A stretch of 64,000 nt of DNA from Sphingomonas sp. KRR8 (GTDB lineage: Bacteria > Pseudomonadota > Alphaproteobacteria > Sphingomonadales > Sphingomonadaceae): contig NZ_CP097462.1 of NCBI RefSeq assembly GCF_023559245.1, forward strand, positions 744,001-808,000, read 5' to 3'. The notes under the pieces are model-generated. The model made no database searches. It was not told the DNA's origin and saw only the letters and a list, made by a program, of their open reading frames with translations. Below are positions 42,691 to 60,867 of this stretch, piece after piece. The number at the start of each line of letters is the position of its first letter. Positions within the stretch are counted from its first letter, which is position 1. The position numbers and the translations under genes are program-made.

Positions 42691-42899
42691 AGCTGCTCGG
42701 CCCAGCCTTGCTGCTGCTCCTCGCAGGCTGTGGCTCGTCGAAGGACGACAGCATCGAGCCGATCCGTGACCAGGGCAACGCCGGCAGCAACGAGTTGTTG
42801 TCGGCGGCCGATCAGGCGGCAGGGAACGCAGCGGCCAGGATGAGCGCTGAAGCGGGCAGCAACAATCAGGCGAACCTGCAAGGGGAGACAAGACGATGA
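42687..42899 (+). CDS. Small lipoprotein
   Basis: 70-residue protein starting at a GTG that overlaps the peptidase stop. The lipobox is LLAGC at residues 12-16, so the mature chain begins at that cysteine. It then has an acidic, low-complexity helical stretch (SNELLSAADQAAGNAAARMS). No known family. It overlaps the next lipoprotein gene by ATGA. Confidence 0.7.
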   Translation: MKLLGPALLLLLAGCGSSKDDSIEPIRDQGNAGSNELLSAADQAAGNAAARMSAEAGSNNQANLQGETRR

Positions 42900-43276
42900 A
42901 CGGCAAGCTGATGGTGGGCGTGGCGATGGCTCTGGCGCTGGGCGCCTGCTCGGCCCGTGACGAAGGCAATGGCAGCACGGTGATCTCCGTCGACAAGAAC
43001 GCCGTGCAAGGTGGGCTGAACGAGGCCGGCGCGGCGCTCAAGGACGCGGGCAACGAGGTCAAGGACGCAGCGGACAAGGCAGCCCCGGCCGTCAAGGATG
43101 CCGCCGACAAGGCTGGAAGCGCGATCGGCAATGCCGCCGACAAGACCGGCGACGCGGTCTCCAACGCTGCCGACAAGACCGGCGCTGCTGCCCGTCATAC
43201 CGCCGACAAGGCCGACAATGCGGTCGACAAAACCCATGTCACTGTGACGACCAATAGCAGCGACCGCAAGCACTAG
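42896..43276 (+). CDS. Lipoprotein with LEA-like 11-residue repeats
   Basis: 126-residue lipoprotein (lipobox LGAC, cysteine at 18). Residues about 60-115 consist of five consecutive 11-residue units built on xxAADKxxxAV: KDAADKAAPAV, KDAADKAGSAI, GNAADKTGDAV, SNAADKTGAAA, RHTADKADNAV. This is the spacing of LEA/YtxH-type amphipathic helices linked to membrane or desiccation protection. The role here is inferred only. Confidence 0.75.
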   Translation: MNGKLMVGVAMALALGACSARDEGNGSTVISVDKNAVQGGLNEAGAALKDAGNEVKDAADKAAPAVKDAADKAGSAIGNAADKTGDAVSNAADKTGAAARHTADKADNAVDKTHVTVTTNSSDRKH

Positions 43277-43316: not shown

Positions 43317-43393
<77 letters not shown>

Positions 43394-43417: not shown

Positions 43418-43693
43418 GTGAGCGCGGACAACCCGACCTACCTCCGCGACCGTGAGCTCCTCGAAGCCGAGCTTGGAGACGAGCTTGTCGCTTTGGATGT
43501 CGACGAAGGGCTTTGCTTTGGCTTCAACGATGTGGCGACGGCCATCTGGCGACTGTTGAGGGAGCCAAGGACGCTGGCTGGACTGGTCGAGCAACTGACA
43601 GACGATTATGAGGTCGCGCCAGACGAATGCCGCAGCGACACGCTTGCCGCATTGGAAATCCTCCAAAAACATCGGCTTGTCCGCGCCATTTAG
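43418..43693 (+). CDS. PqqD-family RiPP recognition protein (lasso B1 type)
   Basis: 91-residue PqqD/RRE-fold protein. LVALDVDEGLCFGFNDVATAIWRLLREP and the C-terminal ALEILQKHRLVRAI fit stand-alone PqqD proteins that bind RiPP leader peptides. GTG start with AGGAG 7 bases upstream. Followed by a short precursor candidate and an asparagine-synthase-like gene, so it is read as the B1 leader-binding partner of a lasso system. Confidence 0.82.
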   Translation: MSADNPTYLRDRELLEAELGDELVALDVDEGLCFGFNDVATAIWRLLREPRTLAGLVEQLTDDYEVAPDECRSDTLAALEILQKHRLVRAI

Positions 43694-43774
43694 CTGCTTG
43701 CCACTCGCGCGAGTTCCACTTACGACGACTGTGGCCATTTCGGATCGACGTTGATCCACTCAGGGGAGGCTCGG

Positions 43775-43885
43775 TTGGCAAAGAAGACTTGGCGCAGACC
43801 AGAAATCAGAACGCTGCGCGCCGGTGAGGCCGAGAACGGCTCCCGCAACGTCCGCATCGACGGGGTCAACAACCAGCGTTCGTAA
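43775..43885 (+). CDS. Candidate lasso precursor peptide
   Basis: 36-codon ORF with TTG start and GGAGG 5 bases upstream. Leader candidate residues 1-21 carry W6-x2-P9-x-I11, resembling the Y-x2-P-x-L recognition motif of lasso leaders. Core candidate G22 to S36 (GSRNVRIDGVNNQRS) has glycine first and aspartate at position 8, as needed for an 8-membered macrolactam ring. It ends in serine, the residue modified by kinases of paeninodin-type clusters. The usual threonine at position -2 is missing. Confidence 0.6.
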   Translation: MAKKTWRRPEIRTLRAGEAENGSRNVRIDGVNNQRS

Positions 43886-44040
43886 GCACGAATCGATCAG
43901 CGTTTCCGGGCGCCGTCGACTGGCATGATCGCTCCGGCGACGCCGCGGTCGTTCCCCGGGTTAGTGTTGACGGCCACCTTTACCGCCTAACCGAACTGGC
44001 GCGCCGTATTGGTGCGCCCTCTTCCATCGATCTTCCCACC

Positions 44041-45591
44041 TTGCTTGGCGAAGCATTTCGCCAACTCGGCCCGAAGCTGTTCAATCAGCTTGAGGGCAGT
44101 TTCGCGCTTGCGATCTACGAGCCCGCCAAGCGGCGCCTGACGCTCGTGCGCGACGCGACCGGGCAGCGGCCACTTGTCTTTGCCCGAACGCCTGACGGTG
44201 CACGGTTCGGGTCCATCCCCAGCGACCTTCAACTGGCGCTCCAGGTCGATCTCGACGACTTGGGAGCCTTTCTGGCTGGCAGTGCCGCTCGGTCGACTAC
44301 GACCCCGCTATGCGGCGTCGAGCAGGTTCGGCCCGGTGAGATGGTGGTGCTCACCCCGGGAGCTTGTGAGCGGCGCTACTGGTGGCAGCCGGAGGTGGGT
44401 CCATCAGCGCACGACCGTTCGCGCGACTATGCCGGGGAGTATCGCAGCCACCTGACGCGAGCCGTCGAACCCTGGCTCGGCCAGGGGCTCACTGCCTGCC
44501 AGCTCAGCGGTGGATGGGACAGCGGCGCGGTCACGGGTGCCGCGGTCAGCCTGCGCGGAACCGCGAACGTCCGCGCCTACACGGCGGTGCCCGCAGCACC
44601 CATTCAGGGTAAAGCGATGCGGCACACCAATGTCGATGAGACAGGTCTGGCAAGCGCTTCCGCCTCGGCGCTCGGGGTGACGCACCAGCTGATCAACGCT
44701 CGCGCCGAGCCTTTTGCTCTGGCACGGTGGTTCCACGAGGTCGCGCAATCGCCCTTGGTTTCTCCCTTTCCGCTGACGTGGTGGAATGCGATCCGAGACC
44801 AGGCGCGCGCCGACGGGGCCACTGCAGTCCTCACCGGCGAGATGGGTAATCTATCCCTGAATGCCGGCGGGCTGTCCGCGCTCGCAGTTCTGATCGCCCA
44901 GCGGAGACTGGCGAGTGCATGGCGCGAGGCCCGTCTGCTTGCCAGAGCGGGAACGATTCGCTGGCGAGGGGCGGCAGCTGCCGTGCTGAGCGGACACGTG
45001 CCAGACACTCTCTTGCAGTGGTTCGGCGAGCGCCTCGCCGGTGGTCCGCCCGCGAGGCCCGAGACGTTTCTGCTTGAGCGCGGAACTGGTGACAGGCGAG
45101 CCGAGACGCTCCCCGCGGATGCCTACGAGGCCCGGCTCGCCATGATCAGGGAGACCGAATCGGGCGTCCATCGGGTCCTCAGCGAGCGCCATTGGGATCT
45201 GATCGAAGCGGACCCGACGGCTGATCGGGCGCTGATCGAATGGAGTCTAACCTTGCCGCCGGAGGCTTTCCTGAAGAATGGCGAACTACGTCCAATGGCG
45301 CGGCGCGCATTGCAGGGCTGGCTTCCCGACCCGGTGCTGAATTCCCATCTGCGCGGTCTTCAGAGCGCGGATTGGTACCAGATGACGTCGGCCGCAGAAT
45401 GCCGCCATGTCCTGGCCGAGATCCGCGAGCATCAACCCGTTCGTGAATTCCTCGACATTGCGGCGCTGGACCGGGCAATATCGGAATGGCCCTCGAGTGA
45501 CTGGAACAGCGCGGCCCACTACGCCCGTTTTCGCGTGGGCGTGGTCGGCGCCCTCTGCACAGGACTGTTCATCGCTCGGTTTGCGGCGTGA
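44041..45591 (+). CDS. Asparagine-synthase-like lasso cyclase
   Basis: At least 516 residues. A partial class-II glutaminase-like fold (LEGSFALAIYEPAKRRLTLVR) without the N-terminal cysteine precedes an ATP pyrophosphatase domain with QLSGGWDSGAV near residue 155. This split fits lasso cyclases, which activate a side-chain carboxylate and do not use glutamine. TTG 44041 is the first canonical start, but the same frame reads as protein at least from 43918 and is open from 43828, so the N-terminus is unresolved. Overlaps the convergent kinase gene by 23 bases. Confidence 0.8.
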   Translation: MLGEAFRQLGPKLFNQLEGSFALAIYEPAKRRLTLVRDATGQRPLVFARTPDGARFGSIPSDLQLALQVDLDDLGAFLAGSAARSTTTPLCGVEQVRPGEMVVLTPGACERRYWWQPEVGPSAHDRSRDYAGEYRSHLTRAVEPWLGQGLTACQLSGGWDSGAVTGAAVSLRGTANVRAYTAVPAAPIQGKAMRHTNVDETGLASASASALGVTHQLINARAEPFALARWFHEVAQSPLVSPFPLTWWNAIRDQARADGATAVLTGEMGNLSLNAGGLSALAVLIAQRRLASAWREARLLARAGTIRWRGAAAAVLSGHVPDTLLQWFGERLAGGPPARPETFLLERGTGDRRAETLPADAYEARLAMIRETESGVHRVLSERHWDLIEADPTADRALIEWSLTLPPEAFLKNGELRPMARRALQGWLPDPVLNSHLRGLQSADWYQMTSAAECRHVLAEIREHQPVREFLDIAALDRAISEWPSSDWNSAAHYARFRVGVVGALCTGLFIARFAA

Positions 45592-46489
45592 TGCTCGCCA
45601 ACAGCTTTCTGATGTGCTGCTCGAATGCTGCGGTGTCCCAAGGGCGGCTCCACCGACGAACCCGGATCTGCGTTGCGAGACGGACGCAGGCGCGCCACGC
45701 TTCCTCATGTTCGCGGCCGGCGAGATACTCGCCGCGGTAGATGTTGCCAAAAAGGACGGAGAGCGCATCGGCCGGCGTGAGTTGTTCAACGCCGTGCTCC
45801 TGCGCACGCTCAAGCTGAAACACCCCACCGAGGGGGACGGGTCCTGATGGGATGACGCCGGCGCGCGCCGGGACATCATATTTGTCCCAGTCGTCGCTGT
45901 CCTCTTCGTAGGAGCGGCTGAAATGGTCGAGGTTACGCCCGCTCCGCTCGATCGCGTCACGCCACAGCCGAAGGCGCGGTAGCCCGGGCCAGGCCACCGC
46001 CGCGCCGTCCTGACCAAAGCCGATGACACAGACGTCATCGCTAAGCAGCGGGAAGCCGTTGTCCTGAAACCATGCCGCCAAGGTGGACTTGCCCGACCCA
46101 GATGGCCCTGTGAACGCGTAGGCAAGACCATCGATGACGACGGCATTCGCGTGCAACGGAAGCAGGCCGCGCTGGTGAAGCAGCATGCCCATGGCGGAGC
46201 CGAGGAGGTAAAGGCGGATATTGCGCTCTGGGACGCCGGGCTGCGCCTCGACCAGCAGTTCGCAACCTCGGCTGGCCAGGTAACGCCCCACCCGTTCGAT
46301 CGCCAGAAGCCCTCCGCCTTCAACGCGGTGGAAACCGGGCGCCTGAGGCCATTCCCCCGGCAGGGTTGCCGTGCGAATGATGATATCGGGCGCCGTGCCG
46401 GCGTGCTCCGCTTGCAGTTCGATCAGTTCGAGGTCGCTTTGCACATGGAGCCCGAACAGCCGGTAGGAGAAGACACGCGGGTGCGTCAC
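45569..46489 (-). CDS. HPr-kinase-like protein of the RiPP cluster
   Basis: 306-residue protein. Walker A is GPSGSGKST at 128-136, followed by the HPrK-type LLSDDVCVIG. It lacks the N-terminal domain of true HPr kinases and there is no PTS gene nearby. Homologues in lasso clusters phosphorylate the C-terminal serine of the precursor, and the candidate precursor here ends in serine. Divergent from the nucleotidyltransferase gene. Confidence 0.82.
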   Translation of the reverse strand: MTHPRVFSYRLFGLHVQSDLELIELQAEHAGTAPDIIIRTATLPGEWPQAPGFHRVEGGGLLAIERVGRYLASRGCELLVEAQPGVPERNIRLYLLGSAMGMLLHQRGLLPLHANAVVIDGLAYAFTGPSGSGKSTLAAWFQDNGFPLLSDDVCVIGFGQDGAAVAWPGLPRLRLWRDAIERSGRNLDHFSRSYEEDSDDWDKYDVPARAGVIPSGPVPLGGVFQLERAQEHGVEQLTPADALSVLFGNIYRGEYLAGREHEEAWRACVRLATQIRVRRWSRPWDTAAFEQHIRKLLASITPQTER

Positions 46490-46557
46490 GCAAGGCCTCC
46501 TGCCGGATGGCCGGTCGTGCTAGCCGCAAGTGATATGCTTCTGCGCCGTCCCTGCCC

Positions 46558-47619
46558 GTGCCGCTGACCGCATCGCCCGTGCTGCGCTGGCTTGCGGCCG
46601 CCTGCCGCCAGGACGGCGCCCCGCTCTCTCCGACCCCCATTCCTTGGTCCGAGATCATCTCTCTCGCCCGGCGCCACCGGGTGCAGAGCCTGCTCTACGC
46701 CGGAGTGACAAGGCGCGCTCAGGAAATCCCGCCGGAAGTCGCGAGCCAGCTTCGTGCGGAGGCGCATCGGGTTGCCGCCGAGAATCTGCAGGCCGCAGCC
46801 GAATGCCGCCGCATCCGTGACGCGTTCGACAGTGCCGATCTGCCGCTGCTGTTCGTGAAGGGACTGACACTCTCGCAACTCGCCTACGGTGCAAGCACGC
46901 TCAAGCTCAGCCGCGACATCGACTTGTTGGTTCTGCCAGAGCAGGTCGGACGCGCCGGAGAAGTGCTTGCGCTGCTGGGTTACCAGGCTCAGGTCAGCGC
47001 CGATTCTCGACGTCTGGCGCGATGGCATCGCTGGTCGAAGGAATCCGGGTGGATCGCCCCTTCCGGCCTGCTCGTCGAGTTGCATAGCCGGCTGACGGAC
47101 CACCCGGGCATCCTTCCAGACCTGCGGGCGAACTCGGCCTCGCAACTGGTGGAGGTCATATCTGGGCTTGCGCTGCCGACACTCAGACGCGACGCCCTCT
47201 TGGCTTATCTGGCCGTTCACGGCGCTTCGAGCGCCTGGTTCCGGCTGAAGTGGCTCGCCGACCTCCAGGCCTTGTTGGGCGAAGCCGACGCCACTGGCCT
47301 GGATGAGGTGCATGAAGCCATGCGCCGGCTGGGTGCGGGTCGGGCGGCGAGCCAGGCCATGCTGCTGCTTCATTGGGTGTACGGCATGCCGCTGAGCGAT
47401 CGCTTGGTCACGGTCCTGGCTGCCGATCGCCGAGCGCGCTGGCTCGCCTCCGAAGCACTGCGCCAACTCGAAGCCCCGGTTGAGCCGACCGCTCGCCGCC
47501 GGGGAACGGTAGGCATTCACGCCAGCCAGCTGCTGATCGGCGAGCATTGGACCTTTCCGTTGTCCGAAGGAAAACGCCGCCTCGGAGAAATATTGTTCCG
47601 CCACTTCACCGCAGGCTGA
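46558..47619 (+). CDS. NTP_transf_5-type nucleotidyltransferase of the RiPP cluster
   Basis: 353-residue protein with FVKGLTLSQLAYGASTLKLSRDIDLLV near residue 100, where the D-x-D after a serine is the nucleotidyltransferase metal site. This family recurs in lasso clusters together with HPrK-like kinases; its substrate is not settled. GTG start at 46558, 68 bases from the divergent kinase gene. The 3' end overlaps the convergent Wzy-like gene by 14 bases. Confidence 0.8.
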   Translation: MPLTASPVLRWLAAACRQDGAPLSPTPIPWSEIISLARRHRVQSLLYAGVTRRAQEIPPEVASQLRAEAHRVAAENLQAAAECRRIRDAFDSADLPLLFVKGLTLSQLAYGASTLKLSRDIDLLVLPEQVGRAGEVLALLGYQAQVSADSRRLARWHRWSKESGWIAPSGLLVELHSRLTDHPGILPDLRANSASQLVEVISGLALPTLRRDALLAYLAVHGASSAWFRLKWLADLQALLGEADATGLDEVHEAMRRLGAGRAASQAMLLLHWVYGMPLSDRLVTVLAADRRARWLASEALRQLEAPVEPTARRRGTVGIHASQLLIGEHWTFPLSEGKRRLGEILFRHFTAG

Positions 47620-48958
47620 CGTGCCGGGCTGCGCGGCGCTCGGTCGTCCCGCCCTCTGATTTCCGCCATTCGCGAGGTTCGGCCATGAGCGCGACGGCAG
47701 TGGCCAGAACGCTTGCCACCGCCATGGTGCGCGCCGGGAAGTCGACCAGCGAATGCGCGAGGATCGCGGCGGAGGCGATCGTTCCCGCCCGCTCGTACAC
47801 GGTGCTCGCAGGCGAGCGCCAGATGGCACCCAATCGCCTGAACCACCACCAGAAGAAGGCTGCCAGGATCAGCAGGCCGGCGAGACCGCCCTCCATGGCA
47901 ATTTCCAGATATTCCTCGTGGGCGTGGTTGACCATCGCGCCAAAGAAGACGCCAGGATCCTCGTAGAGCGCGTAGACGCGCGGGAACGAGCCAAGGCCGG
48001 ACCCGACGGGGAACAACTGCCAGGCGATTTCGGCGGTTTTCCCGTAGAGGTGCCTGCGGATATCGGTCGACAGAGCATTATTGGGATCGTTGATGGCGGG
48101 AAGCTGAGAATAAGCGAGCACTGCTATCAGTGCGCATCCGACGGCGAGCAGTCCCACGGCGATCCAGCGGCGGCCGTTGTCCTTGAACAGCAGCAGTGAA
48201 CTCGCAAGCGCGATCGGCACCGTGAGCATCAGTGCGGCCATGGATTTGCTGATCACGAGACCCATGACCAACACCAGGAGCGGACCTAACGCCAAGCCGA
48301 GGCTACCCACCCGTTTGCGGTGCGAGCGACGCTCCTGCATGCCCTGGGCAGTGAGTGCCGCCAGGAAGGGGATGGCGGCCAGGAGCAGCGTTCCCAGATA
48401 ATTGCCATTCGCAAAGAAGCCCGAGGCCGAACCCACTGTTGAAAAGGGGAAAAGATAGTAGCGTCCAGTGCTGATCTGGAGTGCGCCAAGAAGGATGTTC
48501 AGCACGGCGCCGGCGCCGATCGCCAGTGCCAGCCACCCCGCCCGGTATGCGCCCAGGCGAAGAATGGCGGCAAGGAGCGCAAGCGGCGGGATGAGCGCCA
48601 ACGCCGCCGCGAGACTGTCGTAAGGAGCCAGGGAGATGGGTAGCCAGGGCAGCGGCTCACCAAGCAGGCAGAGGTTGACCACGGCCGCCTCGCGCCCCGG
48701 CAGCGCCGTCCAGAAGGCGGGCGGCAACGGGACTAGCTGAAGCAGGATGAGCAGCACGACAGCTGCCATGATCCAGCCGATCTGACGGGCCGACGTTCCA
48801 AGTGCTTGTTTCGGGTCGGCCCAGAAAGCGCTGCCGAGCAAGGCCACTCCGATGAGTTGAAGCACCAGTGGGCCCCACACGCCCTGCCCGCTTCCACCCA
48901 GAATCAAGCAGGCAAGAAGATAGGTGGGAGCAATCCCCTGGCGCAGGGTGGCTGTCAC
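47606..48958 (-). CDS. O-antigen ligase/polymerase family protein (Wzy_C)
   Basis: 450-residue membrane protein with about twelve hydrophobic segments. A large periplasmic loop has WQLFPVGSGLGSFPRVY and VNHAHEEYLEIAMEGGLAG, the Wzy_C/WaaL signature. Likely polymerises or ligates repeat units of the exopolysaccharide made by this locus. Last gene of a coupled run that starts at the glycosyltransferase (56133). Confidence 0.88.
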   Translation of the reverse strand: MTATLRQGIAPTYLLACLILGGSGQGVWGPLVLQLIGVALLGSAFWADPKQALGTSARQIGWIMAAVVLLILLQLVPLPPAFWTALPGREAAVVNLCLLGEPLPWLPISLAPYDSLAAALALIPPLALLAAILRLGAYRAGWLALAIGAGAVLNILLGALQISTGRYYLFPFSTVGSASGFFANGNYLGTLLLAAIPFLAALTAQGMQERRSHRKRVGSLGLALGPLLVLVMGLVISKSMAALMLTVPIALASSLLLFKDNGRRWIAVGLLAVGCALIAVLAYSQLPAINDPNNALSTDIRRHLYGKTAEIAWQLFPVGSGLGSFPRVYALYEDPGVFFGAMVNHAHEEYLEIAMEGGLAGLLILAAFFWWWFRRLGAIWRSPASTVYERAGTIASAAILAHSLVDFPARTMAVASVLATAVALMAEPREWRKSEGGTTERRAARHVSLR

Positions 48959-50115
48959 TCCGCTCTCCCCCGCGTCAGCACCAGCGGGCCGAGGTTGACG
49001 TCAACCGTCATGGGATAGTCGCCCATCGTCCCGCGCAACTCCAGTCGCTGTGCCGCGCAACCTGCCGCCGGAATCACGAAATCGAAGCGGTTCTGCGTCA
49101 GTGCGGCCTCCTGTCGGGTTGAGCCCGGAAGGCAGGTCAGCGCCCAGAACAGTCCGGTGGGCTCGCCGCGGAGCGAGTGACTCAATCGGTAGTGGCCAGC
49201 GGGCAGCAAAAGGATCTGATCGGCAAGGACGGTATCGTCGCGGCCGAAGTAGAGCAGGTGAAGCCCACCGCCTGCCTGGGGTTCAGCGGTCCCTGCCGGA
49301 CTGCTCGAAAGCCGCCAGTTGAAGGGCGGTGGCGCCCCCCCGACAAGGAAGCGCGGGTTGTAGATCGCGGCACGCGGCGACGATGCGACGTTCCCGAATT
49401 GCTGCCATAACGCATAAGCGCGGGCGTAATCTCGATGGTCGACGAGGCTGCTGAGGAGGCGCTGGCGCCATTCGACGTCGGCGTCACCACCCTGGTGTGG
49501 GGCAAGCTGCAGGATCGACGGCAGGTTGGCCGGATTATCCGCCATGAGCGACAGCACCTGGCCCCTTACGACGGGGCGGCGATCGAGCACGGGCTTGAGC
49601 CGGATCGCGGCACCGGGTTGCGCGGCATATTGCGCCAAGGCAGGCACGAGCGGTGCAGCGTCACCATTCAATCGCTCAAACAGGAAGCCGACCTCCGCCA
49701 GCCCGGCTTCCGCCCGATTCTGACGAAAGTAGAGCTGCGCAAGGAGGAACCGTGGTGCCGGGGCCAGCGGGTCCAGCCGGCTTGCCTCCTTCAGCAAGCG
49801 GTCCGCCTTCGGCAGATCACCGGCGGCAAAGGCCCTCGTCCCCTCCACCAGTAAAGGACCGGGATTGAGCGGATCACGGCGCGCGACTGCCCGCAACTCG
49901 GCCGTGACCATGGCAGATGGAGCACGTCCCGCCGCTACCGTTTCGCCAATGGCCTGCATTCCGGCGCTCAGCCGGACGGCGGGGTGCTTCGGCCAGATCG
50001 ACGCGGCGAGCTCCGGGCGCGTCTGCGCAAAGCCCAGCACCGCTGCCACCCTGATGGCGAGGCCGGCGAGCAGCAGCCCGGCGATGATCACCAGCGCGCG
50101 GCGAAGAACGGTCAA
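48955..50115 (-). CDS. Membrane-anchored TPR-like protein of the EPS locus
   Basis: 386-residue protein with one N-terminal membrane helix (RALVIIAGLLLAGLAIRVAA). TPR-like helices follow (about 70-150, with AGDLPKADRLLKEASRLDPLAP), and a C-terminal beta-rich domain from about 250. Overlaps both flanking genes by ATGA, so it is part of the polymerase/autokinase unit. No specific family recognised. Confidence 0.75.
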   Translation of the reverse strand: MTVLRRALVIIAGLLLAGLAIRVAAVLGFAQTRPELAASIWPKHPAVRLSAGMQAIGETVAAGRAPSAMVTAELRAVARRDPLNPGPLLVEGTRAFAAGDLPKADRLLKEASRLDPLAPAPRFLLAQLYFRQNRAEAGLAEVGFLFERLNGDAAPLVPALAQYAAQPGAAIRLKPVLDRRPVVRGQVLSLMADNPANLPSILQLAPHQGGDADVEWRQRLLSSLVDHRDYARAYALWQQFGNVASSPRAAIYNPRFLVGGAPPPFNWRLSSSPAGTAEPQAGGGLHLLYFGRDDTVLADQILLLPAGHYRLSHSLRGEPTGLFWALTCLPGSTRQEAALTQNRFDFVIPAAGCAAQRLELRGTMGDYPMTVDVNLGPLVLTRGRAE

Positions 50116-52337
50116 ACCGCGTCCGCGTCGGCCGCCTGGTGGGTGATCAGCACGACCTTGTCGGGTCGATCATCGTCGATCTGCCCGTAACGATAGGAGT
50201 AATAGCCGTACCCGCCATCCCGCTCGACTGACTTGGTCAGCACGGCACCCAAGACACGCGCGCCAGATGCTTCAACCCGGTTGAGCGACTCAACCGCCGC
50301 CCGCGTACGGGTACGTCCGCTCTCAACAACGAACAGCGTTCCGGCGACCGCTGCCGCGAGCAACGGAGCGTCGGCAAGCCCGAGCACCGGTGGGCCGTCC
50401 ACCACCACGAGATCGAAGCGGTGACAGGCGTCGTCGAGGATGTTGGCGAACCGCCGCGTCGACAGCAGGTCCGCCGGGTTCGGAGGCAACGGCCCGCAGG
50501 GAAGCAGCCAAAGATTTTCGAACTGCGTCGTGACGACCTTGCCCTCGACGTCCTCGTGATTGGTCAGCAGGCCGACCAGTCCCTGTTCATTGCCTCCGGT
50601 CTTGAAGGATGGCTTGCGCAGGTCAGCGTCGATCAACAGCACATTGCGCCCTTGGCGGGCAAAACTCTGCGCGACCGCGAGCGCGGTCGACGACTTGCCT
50701 TCGCTTTCCTGAGTGGAGGTAATCAGAACGCTTCGGGGCACCCCGTCTTCGGTCGTGAAGCGAAGTCCGGCCGCGACCGCCGAATAGGCCTCGGCGACGG
50801 CGGACGAGGGATCGCGAATGTCGTCCACGAGCGTTCCACTCTTCGCGAGCCGCTTCGGAATGGCGCCAAGGCAGGCGATCTGAAGCTTGTTGCGGACGTC
50901 CTCGCGGGTCTTGATCGTGTCGCTCAGGAACTCGAAGCCAAGCGCCGATCCGACACCCGCCAGCAGCCCCAATCCCAGCCCGACCAGCAGGTTCAGCGGC
51001 AGGCTGGGCTTGAACGGGGCGCCGGGCGGAAGTGCGCGATCGACGATGGAGATGGGCGCCGCGCCGACGCCGCCGGCCACGCCGATCTCCTTGTAGCGCT
51101 GCAACAGGGCGTCATAGAGCGCACGGTTGGTATCCACCTCCCGTTGCAGGATATTGTACTGAACGCTGCGGCCACGCAGGTCGAGCACCGAGCCCTTGAG
51201 CGCGTTGACCCTGCCTTGCAGCGAGGCCTCGGCGGCCGCCGCGCCCCGATATTCCTGCGCCAGGCTGTTGCTCCGCCCACCGCTGACTTGCGCGGTCTCC
51301 CGGGCGATCTGCTTGTCGAGCTCATCGATCCGCGACCGCAGGCTGACCATGTCGGGATGGTCTGGCTTCAGGAGCGTACGCTTTTCCTGATATTCGGCCT
51401 CGAGACCTGCCTTGGTCTGCCGCAGTGCCGAGGTGCTTTCGTTGACCTCGTTGGTCGGACCGGATGCTTGCGCGGCACGATAGGCGCCTTCCGCCGCGAC
51501 ACGGCGCGCCGTTGCCGCCGCCAGAGCGGTGTTGAGTGCCTGCAGCGATTCGCCCTGGAGCGAGCCCGCATCACTCTGCCCGCCGCCTTTGCCGTCGGCT
51601 GCTGCGCCCTGGAGGTTGATGATGCCCTCGCTCTGGGCATAGGACACCAGCTGACGTTCCGACCGCTCGAGATCGCCGCGCGTCTTGCCGATCTGCCGCT
51701 CAAGGAAACGGCGTGCGTAGTTGGACGACTCGTACTTGCGCTGCAGGTTGGAGTTGATGAAGCCGTCCGCGACCCCGTTCGCGATCTGCGCGGCCAACTG
51801 CGGGTTCGGGCTGGTGAAGCTGAAACGGATCAGCCGCCCCTCCTTGGGCGGGATGACGTCGAGCCCGCCGGCAACGATGCCGGCAGCCCTGTTGAGCCGC
51901 GCCGTGGCGTCACCCTGGCCGACGACCGATGGCGTGTTCACCAGGTTCAGCTCCTGGGCGACGCGCTCCGCAAGGCTGCGACTGCCGAGCAGTCCTACCT
52001 GCGTCTGAACGAAGTCGAACGTGCTGTCGTCGTTGCCGAACCGATTGCGCTGCTGCTCGTCGGACACGTCCACCGTGGGTGGATTGACCTCCAGAGTGAC
52101 CCAGGCCCTGTAGAGCGGCGTGGTCAGCAGGGTCGCGACCACCCCAAGCGCAAGGCCCAGCGCGGCGGCACCGATGATAAGCCACCGCCACTCACGGATG
52201 ATGCGAAGAATGGTTCGCGCATCCAGCTGCGGTGCATGATGCGGCCGGTTTGCCACGCCCAATGTCGCATTCGGTGCAACCAGCCTGTCGGACAGGGCCC
52301 GACCTTCGGCCGCGCTGAGGGTGAGATCGCGATTCAC
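50112..52337 (-). CDS. Polysaccharide tyrosine autokinase (Wzc type)
   Basis: 741-residue inner membrane protein. The N-terminal Wzz domain is bounded by two membrane helices (about 52-70 and 455-475) with a periplasmic coiled coil between. A cytosolic BY-kinase domain follows, with SEGKSSTALAVAQSFARQG (Walker A), VLLIDADLRKPS (Walker A') and LVVVDGPPV (Walker B). The C-terminus has a tyrosine cluster (GGYGYYSYRYG). It controls chain length and export with Wza. Confidence 0.93.
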   Translation of the reverse strand: MNRDLTLSAAEGRALSDRLVAPNATLGVANRPHHAPQLDARTILRIIREWRWLIIGAAALGLALGVVATLLTTPLYRAWVTLEVNPPTVDVSDEQQRNRFGNDDSTFDFVQTQVGLLGSRSLAERVAQELNLVNTPSVVGQGDATARLNRAAGIVAGGLDVIPPKEGRLIRFSFTSPNPQLAAQIANGVADGFINSNLQRKYESSNYARRFLERQIGKTRGDLERSERQLVSYAQSEGIINLQGAAADGKGGGQSDAGSLQGESLQALNTALAAATARRVAAEGAYRAAQASGPTNEVNESTSALRQTKAGLEAEYQEKRTLLKPDHPDMVSLRSRIDELDKQIARETAQVSGGRSNSLAQEYRGAAAAEASLQGRVNALKGSVLDLRGRSVQYNILQREVDTNRALYDALLQRYKEIGVAGGVGAAPISIVDRALPPGAPFKPSLPLNLLVGLGLGLLAGVGSALGFEFLSDTIKTREDVRNKLQIACLGAIPKRLAKSGTLVDDIRDPSSAVAEAYSAVAAGLRFTTEDGVPRSVLITSTQESEGKSSTALAVAQSFARQGRNVLLIDADLRKPSFKTGGNEQGLVGLLTNHEDVEGKVVTTQFENLWLLPCGPLPPNPADLLSTRRFANILDDACHRFDLVVVDGPPVLGLADAPLLAAAVAGTLFVVESGRTRTRAAVESLNRVEASGARVLGAVLTKSVERDGGYGYYSYRYGQIDDDRPDKVVLITHQAADADAV

Positions 52338-57124: not shown

Positions 57125-58849
57125 TTGGCCGTGGCTACACCGCTCCGCACCATCTTGCGCCTGATCTCACCGGCTCGCCGGCGCGAGGCAGTGTTGCTCG
57201 TCGGGTTCATGATTGTCGGCGCATTTGCCGATCTGGTCACCATCGGCGCCTTGCTGCCGTTTCTGACACTTCTATCCGGCTCGGGTGCTGGCGGGCGGTG
57301 GTTCCTCGCCGCCCATCGCTTCAGCCTGGCCGAGGCGGCACTGTTGTTCGCGGGCGCAGCCCTCGTGGCGGGACTGCTTCGGCTGGCGCTCACCCGCTGG
57401 ACCCTGCGATTTGCGGCGATGACGGGGCATGAATGCGCGGTCGAAATCCAACGCAGGCTGCTGCTTCAGTCCTACACCTTCCACCTGCAGCAGCATTCGA
57501 GCAGCCTGCTGTCTGCGCTGACCAAGGTCGAGGAATTGGTCTGGCGAGTGCTGCTGCCCTTGTTGCAGGGCCTCGCGGCGATATTCGTCTCCGGGGCTAT
57601 CCTCGGCACCCTGCTGTGGGTCGAGCCGGCGATTGCGGCCGTCACCCTCGCGGGCTTCGGACTGCTTTACGGGGCCATTGCGCTGGCCGTGAGAGCGCGG
57701 CTGGATCAGGCCTCAACGGCATTCGATCGGCTGTATGACGAGCGGGTGCGCCTGGTGCAGGACAGCCATGGCGCCATCCGCGACATCATCCTTGACGGTT
57801 CGGCGCCGGTCGCCCTGGAGCAATTCCGGCGGACGGACCTCACCCTGACGGAGACGCAGGCACGTGCCGCCGCCATTGCCGCGGCTCCGCGCTTCCTGGT
57901 GGAGGCGATCGGGCTTTGCCTCGTTGCTCTTCTTGCCTGGTGGCTCAGCGGACGGCCGGGTGGACTGGTCGCGGCCTTGCCGCTGTTGGGTGCTCTCGCA
58001 CTCGGCATGCAGCGCATGCTTCCGCTGCTCCAGCAACTGTATCAGAGCTGGGTCGCGCTCAAGACAAGCGACGCGATCGCCGTCGACGTGCTCCGCCTGC
58101 TCAGCCTGCAATTGACGCCCGAAGCATCGGACAGCGGCCCGCTTCTCGCCTTCACCAAGCAAGTGGACCTGAAAGAAGTCGAGTTTCGGTATCCGGCACG
58201 CGCGACGCCGGCCCTCGTCGGGATCAGCCTGGTGATCCGCAAAGGTGAGCGCATCGCCCTCACCGGGCGCACCGGCAGCGGCAAGAGCACTCTGGCCGAC
58301 GTGCTGATGGGCCTGCTGGAGCCGAGCGGTGGGGAGTTGCGCGTTGACGGGGAGCCCATCGGACCGGGGCAGCGGCCGCGCTGGCGCCGGCTGATCGCGC
58401 ATGTTCCGCAAGCCGTCTTCCTGACCGACGACAGCATCGCGGCCAACGTCGCCTTCGGAGCCGGGACAGCGGCGAGCGATCCCGAACGGCTCGCGCGGGC
58501 GCTTCAACTGGCGCAGCTGGACACGCTGGTCACCGAGCTTCCAGACGGTGCCGACACGCCGGTGGGAGAGCGTGGTGCACGCCTGTCCGGGGGTCAGCGC
58601 CAGCGCATCGGGCTCGCCCGCGCGATCTATCGCGACACGCCGATCCTGGTACTCGACGAGGCGACGAGCGCACTGGACGATGAGACCGAGGCAGCGATCG
58701 TCACCGCGCTCGACCGGCTGCAGGCCGAGGGCAAGACGATTATCATCATCGCGCATCGCAGGTCGGCACTTCGCGGTTGCGACCGCGTGGTGCAACTTGA
58801 GGGCGGGCGGATCGTGGACATAGACGAGGCAATACCGGCCGGCTCTTAA
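57125..58849 (+). CDS. ABC transporter, fused permease/ATPase (flippase-like)
   Basis: 574-residue half-transporter. Six membrane helices lie in 1-310. The ATPase domain has Walker A TGRTGSGKST near 382, signature RLSGGQRQRIGLARAIY, Walker B LVLDEATSALDD and switch IIAHR. It resembles PglK/MsbA-type lipid-linked oligosaccharide exporters, fitting the EPS locus. TTG start at 57125. Its TAA shares TTAA with the convergent asnB. Confidence 0.9.
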   Translation: MAVATPLRTILRLISPARRREAVLLVGFMIVGAFADLVTIGALLPFLTLLSGSGAGGRWFLAAHRFSLAEAALLFAGAALVAGLLRLALTRWTLRFAAMTGHECAVEIQRRLLLQSYTFHLQQHSSSLLSALTKVEELVWRVLLPLLQGLAAIFVSGAILGTLLWVEPAIAAVTLAGFGLLYGAIALAVRARLDQASTAFDRLYDERVRLVQDSHGAIRDIILDGSAPVALEQFRRTDLTLTETQARAAAIAAAPRFLVEAIGLCLVALLAWWLSGRPGGLVAALPLLGALALGMQRMLPLLQQLYQSWVALKTSDAIAVDVLRLLSLQLTPEASDSGPLLAFTKQVDLKEVEFRYPARATPALVGISLVIRKGERIALTGRTGSGKSTLADVLMGLLEPSGGELRVDGEPIGPGQRPRWRRLIAHVPQAVFLTDDSIAANVAFGAGTAASDPERLARALQLAQLDTLVTELPDGADTPVGERGARLSGGQRQRIGLARAIYRDTPILVLDEATSALDDETEAAIVTALDRLQAEGKTIIIIAHRRSALRGCDRVVQLEGGRIVDIDEAIPAGS

Positions 58850-60804
58850 GCGGCGTCAAGCCAGGCCTGAAACATCAGGACGCTCCACAACGCCTGGGCG
58901 CCGTCGCGGCGTCCGGCCAGGTGATCCTGCCACCGCCGCTGGATGAGGGCGGTGTCGAGCCAGCCCTGTGCACTCATCCTTGCCGGATCGAGCAAGTCCT
59001 CCGCCCACTCCCGCAGGGGACCCTTCAGCCACTCGCCTACCGGCACGCCGAAGCCGGTCTTGGGCCTGTCGATAAGCGCTGGCGGCACGTGACGGTAGAG
59101 CAGCTTTCTGAGGAGATATTTGCCGCGCCCCTCCCGGACCTTGAGCGACGGCGGGATCCGCGCCGCCACTTCGGCCACGCGGTGGTCGAGGAAAGGCACG
59201 CGGGTCTCCAGGCTGACCGCCATGGACGCGCGATCCACCTTGGTGAGGATGTCGTCGGGCAGATAGGAAAGCGCATCGGCCGTCGTCAGGCGAATGACGT
59301 CAGGCCCGGCGAGTTCAGGGAAGGCCTGCGCCTGCCTGCGGGATGCCGAGAGCACGGGATTGCTCCCAGACCACTCATCGAGGAAATCATCATAAAGGTC
59401 GCCAAGCGACTGTGCCCTGCCCGCGACACGCAGCAACTTCTGGACCTTGGCGCCGACATGCGGCTGGCGCTGACCCGGGAGCAGCGCCGCGGCGCGTCGC
59501 CACAGCCCCGGTGGCAGCTGCCCGAGCAGTTCACCGGTCGCTGACCGAAGCGGTGCCGGGATGCGCGAGATTCTGCTCCACAGCGCGGGAGCCTGCACAT
59601 GGCGATTGTAACCGGCGAACAGCTCATCGCCGCCATCGCCGGTCAAAGCGACCGTCACTTCCCCGCGAGCGAACCGGCTGACGAGAAAGGTCGGTATTTG
59701 CGAGCTGTCAGCGAACGGTTCGTCATAGATGGCCGGAAGCAGCGGAATGACGTCGCGGGCGTCCGCAGGAGTGACAATCTGCTCATGGTGGACGGTGCCA
59801 AGGTGCCGTGCAACGGCGCGGGCATCGTCCGCTTCGTTGTATCCGGCCTCCGTGAACCCGATCGAGAAGGTTCGAACCGGATGCCGGGAATGCTGCTGGT
59901 AAAGCGCCGTGATCGTGGAGCTATCGACCCCGCCTGACAGGAATGCGCCGACCGGAACGTCCGCGACCGCCTGGTCGGCGATCGCCAGACCAAGCGCGTC
60001 CTCGAGCTCCGCAAGGGCGGTAACTTCATCGGCGATGGGATGTATCAGGCCATCGGCCACCACCTGACGGTAATCCCAGTAGGTGCGCAGTTGCAGGCCG
60101 CCGCCGCCCTGTTCGATGCTCGGCGGTTCGGTCAGGGGTGAGCGAGCCGCCGAGCGGTCGAGCGTCAGGATAGACGCGGGTGGGAGCTTGAAGACGCCCC
60201 GAAAGATGGTGTGCGGGGCAGGAACGTTGCCGCGGCGAGCAAAGGCGTCGAGGCTCGATCGATCGATCTCACTGCGGAAATCCGGATGACGGCGGATCGC
60301 TTTCAGTTCGGAGGCGAAGACGAAGTCGCGCCCGCACCAGCCATAGTAGAGCGGCTTTTCTCCAAAGCGATCGCGGACAAGGTGGAGCCGGCGTTCCCGT
60401 GCGTCCCACAATGCGACGGCGAACATGCCGGCAGCGGTAGAGAGCGCCCGATCGAGGCCCCACGTGGCGATCGCCTGGAGGAGGGTCTCCGTATCGCTGT
60501 GACCACGCCATCCGCCCGGCGGCCCACCGCCCTCGCCCTCCAGAACACGCCGGAGGTCTCGATGATTGTAGATCTCCCCATTGTAGCAGAGCATCCAGCG
60601 ACCATCGGCTGAAGCCATGGGCTGGGCGCCGTGCGCGGACAGGTCGACAATGGACAGGCGACGGTGGGAGAGCCCGATACCCGCCGCTGCGTCCGTCCAG
60701 ATCCCGCCTGCGTCAGGACCGCGATGTTGAAGGCTGGCGCCCATCGCCTCGAGCAGGCGCTCACCAGGCTCACCGCTGCTGAAGATACCGGCGATGCCGC
60801 ACAT
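58846..60804 (-). CDS. asnB: Asparagine synthetase, glutamine-hydrolysing
   Basis: 652-residue enzyme. It starts MCGIAGIFSSGEPG with the catalytic Cys2, then LQHRGPDAGGIW, LCYNGEIYNH and the ATP motif GAFLSGGVDSSTI. It is complete and typical, in contrast to the cyclase at 44041-45591. AsnB-type genes are common in EPS loci, where they may amidate sugars or peptides rather than supply asparagine. Confidence 0.92.
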   Translation of the reverse strand: MCGIAGIFSSGEPGERLLEAMGASLQHRGPDAGGIWTDAAAGIGLSHRRLSIVDLSAHGAQPMASADGRWMLCYNGEIYNHRDLRRVLEGEGGGPPGGWRGHSDTETLLQAIATWGLDRALSTAAGMFAVALWDARERRLHLVRDRFGEKPLYYGWCGRDFVFASELKAIRRHPDFRSEIDRSSLDAFARRGNVPAPHTIFRGVFKLPPASILTLDRSAARSPLTEPPSIEQGGGGLQLRTYWDYRQVVADGLIHPIADEVTALAELEDALGLAIADQAVADVPVGAFLSGGVDSSTITALYQQHSRHPVRTFSIGFTEAGYNEADDARAVARHLGTVHHEQIVTPADARDVIPLLPAIYDEPFADSSQIPTFLVSRFARGEVTVALTGDGGDELFAGYNRHVQAPALWSRISRIPAPLRSATGELLGQLPPGLWRRAAALLPGQRQPHVGAKVQKLLRVAGRAQSLGDLYDDFLDEWSGSNPVLSASRRQAQAFPELAGPDVIRLTTADALSYLPDDILTKVDRASMAVSLETRVPFLDHRVAEVAARIPPSLKVREGRGKYLLRKLLYRHVPPALIDRPKTGFGVPVGEWLKGPLREWAEDLLDPARMSAQGWLDTALIQRRWQDHLAGRRDGAQALWSVLMFQAWLDAA

Positions 60805-60867
60805 GTTGGTTCAGTTATCCCCGCCGCCCGCGCGCGGTCTGGCCAGTCCGGAGGCGCAGCGCAAGCG

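Follow-up and report, generated by a model that had tools for sequence, protein, structure and literature searches.

Can a lasso-peptide pathway be complete when the gene for its leader protease does not stand beside the others? This question is raised by a 64,000-nucleotide stretch of the genome of Sphingomonas sp. KRR8 (hereafter the window; positions 744001-808000 of a closed genome made up of a single contig of 2,874,800 bases). Between a tRNA-Pro gene and an exopolysaccharide (EPS) gene set, the window carries the genes B1, A, C, K and N of an apparent lasso-peptide pathway, and no gene for the leader protease B2. Mining tools for ribosomally synthesized and post-translationally modified peptides (RiPPs) look for adjacent A, B and C genes and would here report an incomplete or dead cluster. 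A sequence-only reading of the window had called the cluster lasso-like and of the paeninodin type, and offered three explanations for the missing B2: a B2 acting from another locus, the use of another protease, or decay. Our results favor the first, and support the lasso-like, paeninodin-type assignment. The locus appears to encode most of a phosphorylated lasso-peptide pathway of the syan/paeninodin type, with B2 encoded approximately 99 kb away, a reading to which we give a probability of roughly 70%. Profiles and a leave-one-out precursor model place the five genes where they had been recognized from the sequence (window coordinates):

43418..43693, plus strand: B1, PqqD-like leader-binding protein (RiPP recognition element, RRE), 91 aa; Pfam PF05402
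43775..43885, plus strand: A, lasso precursor, 36 aa, TTG start; leave-one-out model, relatives' precursors beside C, Shine-Dalgarno sequence
43838..43882, plus strand: predicted core GSRNVRIDGVNNQRS; Asp/Glu as core residue 7 or 8 in all 31 precursors, C-terminal Ser in all but one
43828..45591, plus strand: C, lasso cyclase frame; open frame, homology, NCBIfam scores and tree
45569..46489, minus strand: K, HPrK-like peptide kinase, 306 aa; motifs, and homologues beside lasso genes in congeners
46558..47619, plus strand: N, NTP_transf_5 nucleotidyltransferase, 353 aa; NTP_transf_5, 157.6 bits (cut-off 31.2)

Results

A search of the whole genome with PF13471, the check proposed together with the sequence-only reading, gave one place above the cut-off, at genome positions 687632-687964 on the minus strand (65.6 bits); two others scored weakly, at 12.6 and 11.5 bits. 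All three lie outside the window, in which this search found no B2, and the match above the cut-off rules out that B2 is absent from the genome. The protein scores 73.4 bits against the NCBIfam family lasso_biosyn_B2 (cut-off 33), and all 47 B2 proteins in the alignment retain Cys63 and His97. The gene lies approximately 99 kb upstream of B1, so A, B and C are not clustered, and has an EpsG-like polymerase gene and rfb genes on one side and tRNA-Met and argR-argC-argJ-argB on the other. At L004:11051-11105 the B2 frame extends back into tRNA-Met, with a TTG start one base after GGAG; B2 likely starts at a later GTG.

This B2 might instead belong to another RiPP pathway, the cluster working without B2, as for pseudomycoidin, or with another protease. 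A published study reportedly obtained pseudomycoidin in a heterologous host with neither a leader nor a leader peptidase. However, the KRR8 genome holds one C (E<=1e-5) and one B1 by own-genome searches, as well as one K and one N by the genus searches, so its sole B2 hardly belongs to a second lasso pathway. B2 also lies inside the same locus in two congeners (G238 and G276) and appears to be constrained. We consider this explanation improbable, and another protease is not needed.

The pathway genes were searched for in 71 congeneric genomes, that of KRR8 included. In G238 the order is EpsG-B2 and then B1-C-K-N-Wzy_C-TPR-Wzz, with B2 and B1 divergent and adjacent in one EPS locus and the precursor 15.5 kb from C; in G276, too, B2 sits inside the EPS/lasso locus. 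Gene order and strands in KRR8 match those of G238, but approximately 99 kb of ordinary chromosome, from argR to the tRNA-Pro gene, stands between B2 and B1.

43317..43393, plus strand: tRNA-Pro (TGG), found by ARAGORN; edge of the block of approximately 99 kb that separates B2 from B1, adjoining B1 in G263 and G253 too

G263 shows the mirror image, with B1 and B2 106 kb apart. Its block is collinear with that of KRR8, matches covering at least 85,177 of 99,300 bases, a figure that excludes a 16.5-kb match at the B2 end (L004). In G253, for which the ends were compared, EpsG-B2-tRNA-Met-argR and B1-tRNA-Pro-M28 gene are both kept, 95 kb apart, and A-C-K-N lie 356 kb from B1. The surroundings of both genes (EpsG-B2-tRNA-Met-argR-argC and B1-tRNA-Pro-M28) thus recur in G263 and G253, which form one clade with KRR8 (support 100) in a tree built from concatenated B1, B2, C and K. 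Given that the C proteins of G263 and G253 are just 36-53% identical to that of the window, the split between B2 and B1 is, judged from these comparisons, old and common to the three species. Decay fails to explain the absence of B2 from the window, since G263 and G253 show the split as well and every gene is open and apparently constrained. The opposite strand of the kinase, which the sequence-only reading had called unusual, is no peculiarity of this locus: K lies opposite to C in G238, G263 and G253 as well.

Across the genus, C was found in 36 genomes, B2 in 48, B1 in 45 (44 above the cut-off), K in 53, N in 33 and a precursor in 27, and 34 genomes have C, B1 and B2 together. Where both C and B2 are present (35 genomes), they are at most 10 kb apart in 19; B2 lies more than 10 kb from every C on one contig in 13 and on a different contig in 3. 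For B1 and B2 (43 genomes) the two are at most 10 kb apart in 24, farther apart on one contig in 15 and on different contigs in 4. The pathway occupies two places in G260 (N-K-B1 and B2-C-A), three in G262 (A-C-K, N-B2 and B1) and four in G264, G267 and G268 (A-C, K-N, B1 and B2). A precursor lies within 500 bp of a C in 30 of 31 cases, and five genomes (G263, G273, G277, G306 and G312) combine two precursors and two cyclases with a single B1 and a single B2, one C of G306 being in two pieces. These counts of gene places omit one B1 row below the cut-off (G314), the eleven weakest kinase rows (E>1e-15) and two weak precursor rows (G255 and the second of G262), and two neighboring C fragments of G306 were merged as one.

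On the tree, linkage between B2 and C changes six times, at least five of the changes being supported by strong branches. The tree has 41 rows, two of them unlabelled and three from other genera, with the best-scoring C used for genomes with two; linked and orphan labels were assigned manually on the basis of coordinates, G266 (15 kb) counting as linked and G256, whose C was missed by the first C search and found by a later one, as orphan. The second A-C pair of G263 belongs to a stretch of approximately 1.96 kb that corresponds to approximately 0.5 kb in KRR8 between collinear flanks 78-84% identical, from which we infer that the pair is gained or lost as a unit. It stands isolated at L111:8238-10154, and its precursor has no C-terminal Ser. 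In two genomes of other genera (G155 and G169), a cyclase and a B2 are found on different contigs, far from contig ends. Scattering may therefore extend beyond this genus.

Divergence between KRR8 and G263 at codon positions 1/2/3 is 0.23/0.22/0.47 for B2, 0.23/0.19/0.54 for B1, 0.36/0.32/0.60 for C, 0.27/0.27/0.52 for K, 0.29/0.20/0.53 for N and 0.17/0.29/0.43 for A, the last over 35 codons only. This still shows apparent constraint on B1, B2, C, K and N, and a weak one on A. Of the 53 genomes that reach 90% completeness with contamination no higher than 5%, 38 carry both B1 and B2, 13 carry neither and 2 carry B2 only (Fisher P=1.2e-10, uncorrected for kinship).

The precursor consists of MAKKTWRRPEIRTLRAGEAEN and GSRNVRIDGVNNQRS, between which we infer the cleavage site. 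A Shine-Dalgarno sequence, GGGGAGG, has its last base five bases upstream of the TTG start. A model built from the precursors of 14 relatives, with the window precursor excluded, finds A at E=1.4e-16 among 1274 open reading frames (ORFs) of the window, with the runner-up at E=0.17, which rules out a chance ORF. For comparison we used 31 precursors from the loci searched, 30 from congeners and one from another genus (G205); four duplicate or repeat loci were omitted, and G302 lay outside the loci searched. These precursors share K/R-x-W-x-x-P, with a leader motif W-x-x-P-x-[IVL] of the RRE-binding type. AG-x-AE is found in all 31. Given the chosen cleavage site, all 31 also have Asp or Glu as core residue 7 or 8, and 30 end in Ser, the sole exception being the second precursor of G263. 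The set was seeded with a pattern containing part of the motif and its uniformity is therefore partly chosen, whereas the leave-one-out E-value of the window precursor is unaffected. The sequence-only reading would have lost ground had close relatives kept these genes without a precursor; in the syntenic clusters compared, relatives carry one beside the cyclase. In a family-wide sample the precursor model matches at least 3 of 249 genomes, in at least 2 of 96 genera.

The window precursor ends in QRS, and for its core a ring between Gly1 and Asp8 is predicted, with the C-terminal Ser as the phosphorylation site. The leader residue at position -2 is usually Thr, with Ile or Val in Bradymonadales and some Sphingomonadales, according to the part of PMC10368454 used here. 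If the core starts after AGxAEx, this position is instead Glu in 31 of 31 precursors; a core starting one residue earlier, which is also conceivable, would put Ala at -2, with rings of 8 or 9.

C scores 81.7 bits against the NCBIfam lasso cyclase (cut-off 525) and 66.3 bits against asparagine synthase (cut-off 267.1), the latter match beginning at profile position 108; C does not show the combination of a full glutaminase domain and a score over the cut-off that marks an asparagine synthetase B. The C of G238, from an intact cluster, itself reaches only 173.4 bits as a lasso cyclase, and the NCBIfam cut-off therefore does not cover this branch. The window provides an inner control:

58849..60810, minus strand: second asparagine-synthase-like gene; NCBIfam scores

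The scores of this protein are reversed relative to those of C, with 441.3 bits for asparagine synthase (above the cut-off) against 169.9 for lasso cyclase, and it reaches 528.2 bits as an XrtA/PEP-CTERM-type amidotransferase (below the cut-off). In the tree, 56 C rows separate from 2 AsnB-like rows with support 100. The inner control and the tree together rule out C as AsnB, and the grouping with ordinary AsnB proteins that would have spoken against the sequence-only reading is not seen with the two proteins tested. A broader version of the same doubt is that the locus has nothing to do with lasso peptides, C being an AsnB-type amidotransferase of the EPS locus and B1, K and N acting on polysaccharide. 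The conserved position inside the EPS locus, the true AsnB/XrtA-type amidotransferase at 58849-60810 and the sub-cut-off lasso score of C would fit this idea. However, besides the scores and the tree, a precursor that carries Asp or Glu as core residue 7 or 8 adjoins C and the genome contains a member of the curated lasso B2 family, which makes this explanation very unlikely.

B1 scores 59 bits against PF05402 (cut-off 23.4) and 45.7 bits against the NCBIfam family lasso_PqqD_Bac, under the cut-off of 80, and is the sole PqqD place in its genome by the own-genome search. Its top solved structures are lasso B1 chains, the best being 9x90_B, 'lasso peptide biosynthesis PqqD family chaperone' (E=4.7e-7), and the other at E=9.8e-5. 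K matches HprK-related profiles only, all of them below cut-off; by eye, the His, the P-loop Lys (GPSGSGKS) and the Asp-Asp (SDD) of the motif listed in the part of PMC10368454 used here are present. N contains an RDID motif.

The start of C is abnormal. Its frame is open over 587 codons (43828-45591), but the first ATG, GTG or TTG is the TTG at 44041, the stretch 43828-44040 offering only ACG, CTG, ATT and ATC. Homology to the C of G263 starts near 43901, where there is no start codon, and the GTG start of G263 corresponds to TCA here. From TTG 44041 C has 516 aa, whereas its next relatives (P0002-P0004) have 564 aa and start 48 codons earlier. The C of P0001, 97% identical and on another contig, begins at the same TTG, and a sequencing error is therefore unlikely. 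C may use a weak start codon; alternatively, loss of the pathway may be under way in this species.

That the pathway is decaying in KRR8, the start codon of C lost and the rest not yet decayed, is a possibility we take seriously while holding it short of probable. It is the one part of the earlier decay option that may still apply. With G253 as outgroup, Tajima's test gives 79 versus 27 changes for C alone (chi2 25.5). However, the asymmetry is not significant with five other outgroups (43:38, 45:29, 45:37, 56:43 and 48:39), and B1, B2, K and N show no rate asymmetry with the G253 outgroup; faster decay of C, significant with one of six outgroups only, is not claimed. The frame has also stayed open, and C deviates at no near-invariant column. 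Elsewhere in the genus, at L174:4574-6483 (G306) and L188:3625-5507 (G285), the cyclase occupies two overlapping or neighboring frames and the other lasso genes are open. These two cyclases are probably broken.

Beyond N, the window continues into the EPS locus:

47606..48958, minus strand: O-antigen-ligase-like Wzy_C gene, EPS locus flank; profile, synteny with G238, G263 and G253
48955..50115, minus strand: TPR-protein gene, EPS locus flank; profile, synteny with G238, G263 and G253
50112..52337, minus strand: Wzz / tyrosine-kinase chain-length gene, EPS locus flank; profile, synteny with G238, G263 and G253

Lasso genes adjoin Wzy_C of an EPS locus in a number of congeners and also, in another genus, in G047 and G227, as seen at 47606-52337 of the window and in loci L052, L065, L066, L097, L099, L102 and L110. 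On the other side, 42896-43276 on the plus strand encodes a small protein rich in AADK-type repeats, which by eye resembles a stress protein and has no Pfam match at E<=0.001.

Discussion

Several points weigh against a phosphorylated lasso-peptide pathway with a distant B2. The cleavage site and the ring are predictions from sequence, C, B1 and K all fall under the NCBIfam curated cut-offs, and the third residue of the catalytic triad of B2 could not be assigned. C has no ATG, GTG or TTG at its homologous start, and TTG 44041 has no Shine-Dalgarno sequence; with this start missing, Sphingomonas sp. KRR8 may not make the product.

If the pathway does operate, the bsf and syan systems suggest its course (PMC10368454, PMC9266682). 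B1 would bind the KKxWxxPE leader of A, and K, aided by B1, would phosphorylate the precursor, most likely at the C-terminal Ser. Produced from its separate locus, B2 would meet B1 in the cytoplasm and cut after AGEAEN, and C would close Gly1 onto Asp8. N could modify the phosphate or the tail as a putative further step. One B1/B2 set could then serve more than one A-C cassette. Gene linkage would be unnecessary because leader recognition runs via a diffusible adaptor, B1, which fits the repeated scattering, and A and C would remain together because both must match each other's core. We see even odds for the wider proposal of a genus-wide system acting in trans, in which A-C cassettes come and go as units and B1, B2, K and N, separately placed, are shared and serve several precursors.

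Known systems, compared here from parts of the cited papers, resemble this one to differing degrees. The syan cluster of Sphingobium yanoikuyae (SyanA/B1/B2/C/K), whose product is polyphosphorylated at the C-terminal Ser, comes from the same bacterial order and likewise has a kinase, separate B1 and B2 and a precursor with a C-terminal Ser (PMC9266682, PMC10368454). Compared by description, it differs in that B2 is here unlinked and the leader ends in AGxAEx. The bsf cluster of Bradymonas sediminis, with A, B1, B2, C, D, K and N in 7.2 kb, shares the gene set including N, a YxxPxL-like leader motif, a predicted Gly1-Asp8 ring and a B1-assisted kinase, but has Ile at -2 and phosphorylation at Ser3, whereas Glu at -2 and the C-terminal Ser are predicted here (PMC10368454). 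It also has a transporter, D (PMC10368454); none is among the five genes here, and no search for D was made. Paeninodin (PadeA/B1/B2/C/K) offers an HPrK-like kinase acting on the C-terminal Ser of the precursor, although it stems from Bacillota and its genes are clustered (PMC9266682).

RiPP enzymes encoded away from their cluster are already known from the citrulassin PAD deiminase (PMC12971885) and from unclustered lanthipeptide proteases (PMC8960859), as described in the parts of these papers used here. However, the former is a tailoring enzyme and the latter belong to another RiPP class, whereas in this case it is B1 and B2, core lasso proteins, that are unlinked, in several combinations across one genus. 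We found no account of scattered lasso B1/B2/C in the open-licence literature searched, subscription papers being mostly outside this scope.

The leader end AGxAE, without Thr at -2, is a test case for the specificity of B2. If B1 and B2 do act in trans, many lasso clusters regarded as 'incomplete' may be functional, and an A-C cassette may suffice to give a strain a new lasso peptide. The genus would then offer natural tests of the specificity of one B1/B2 pair for several leaders.

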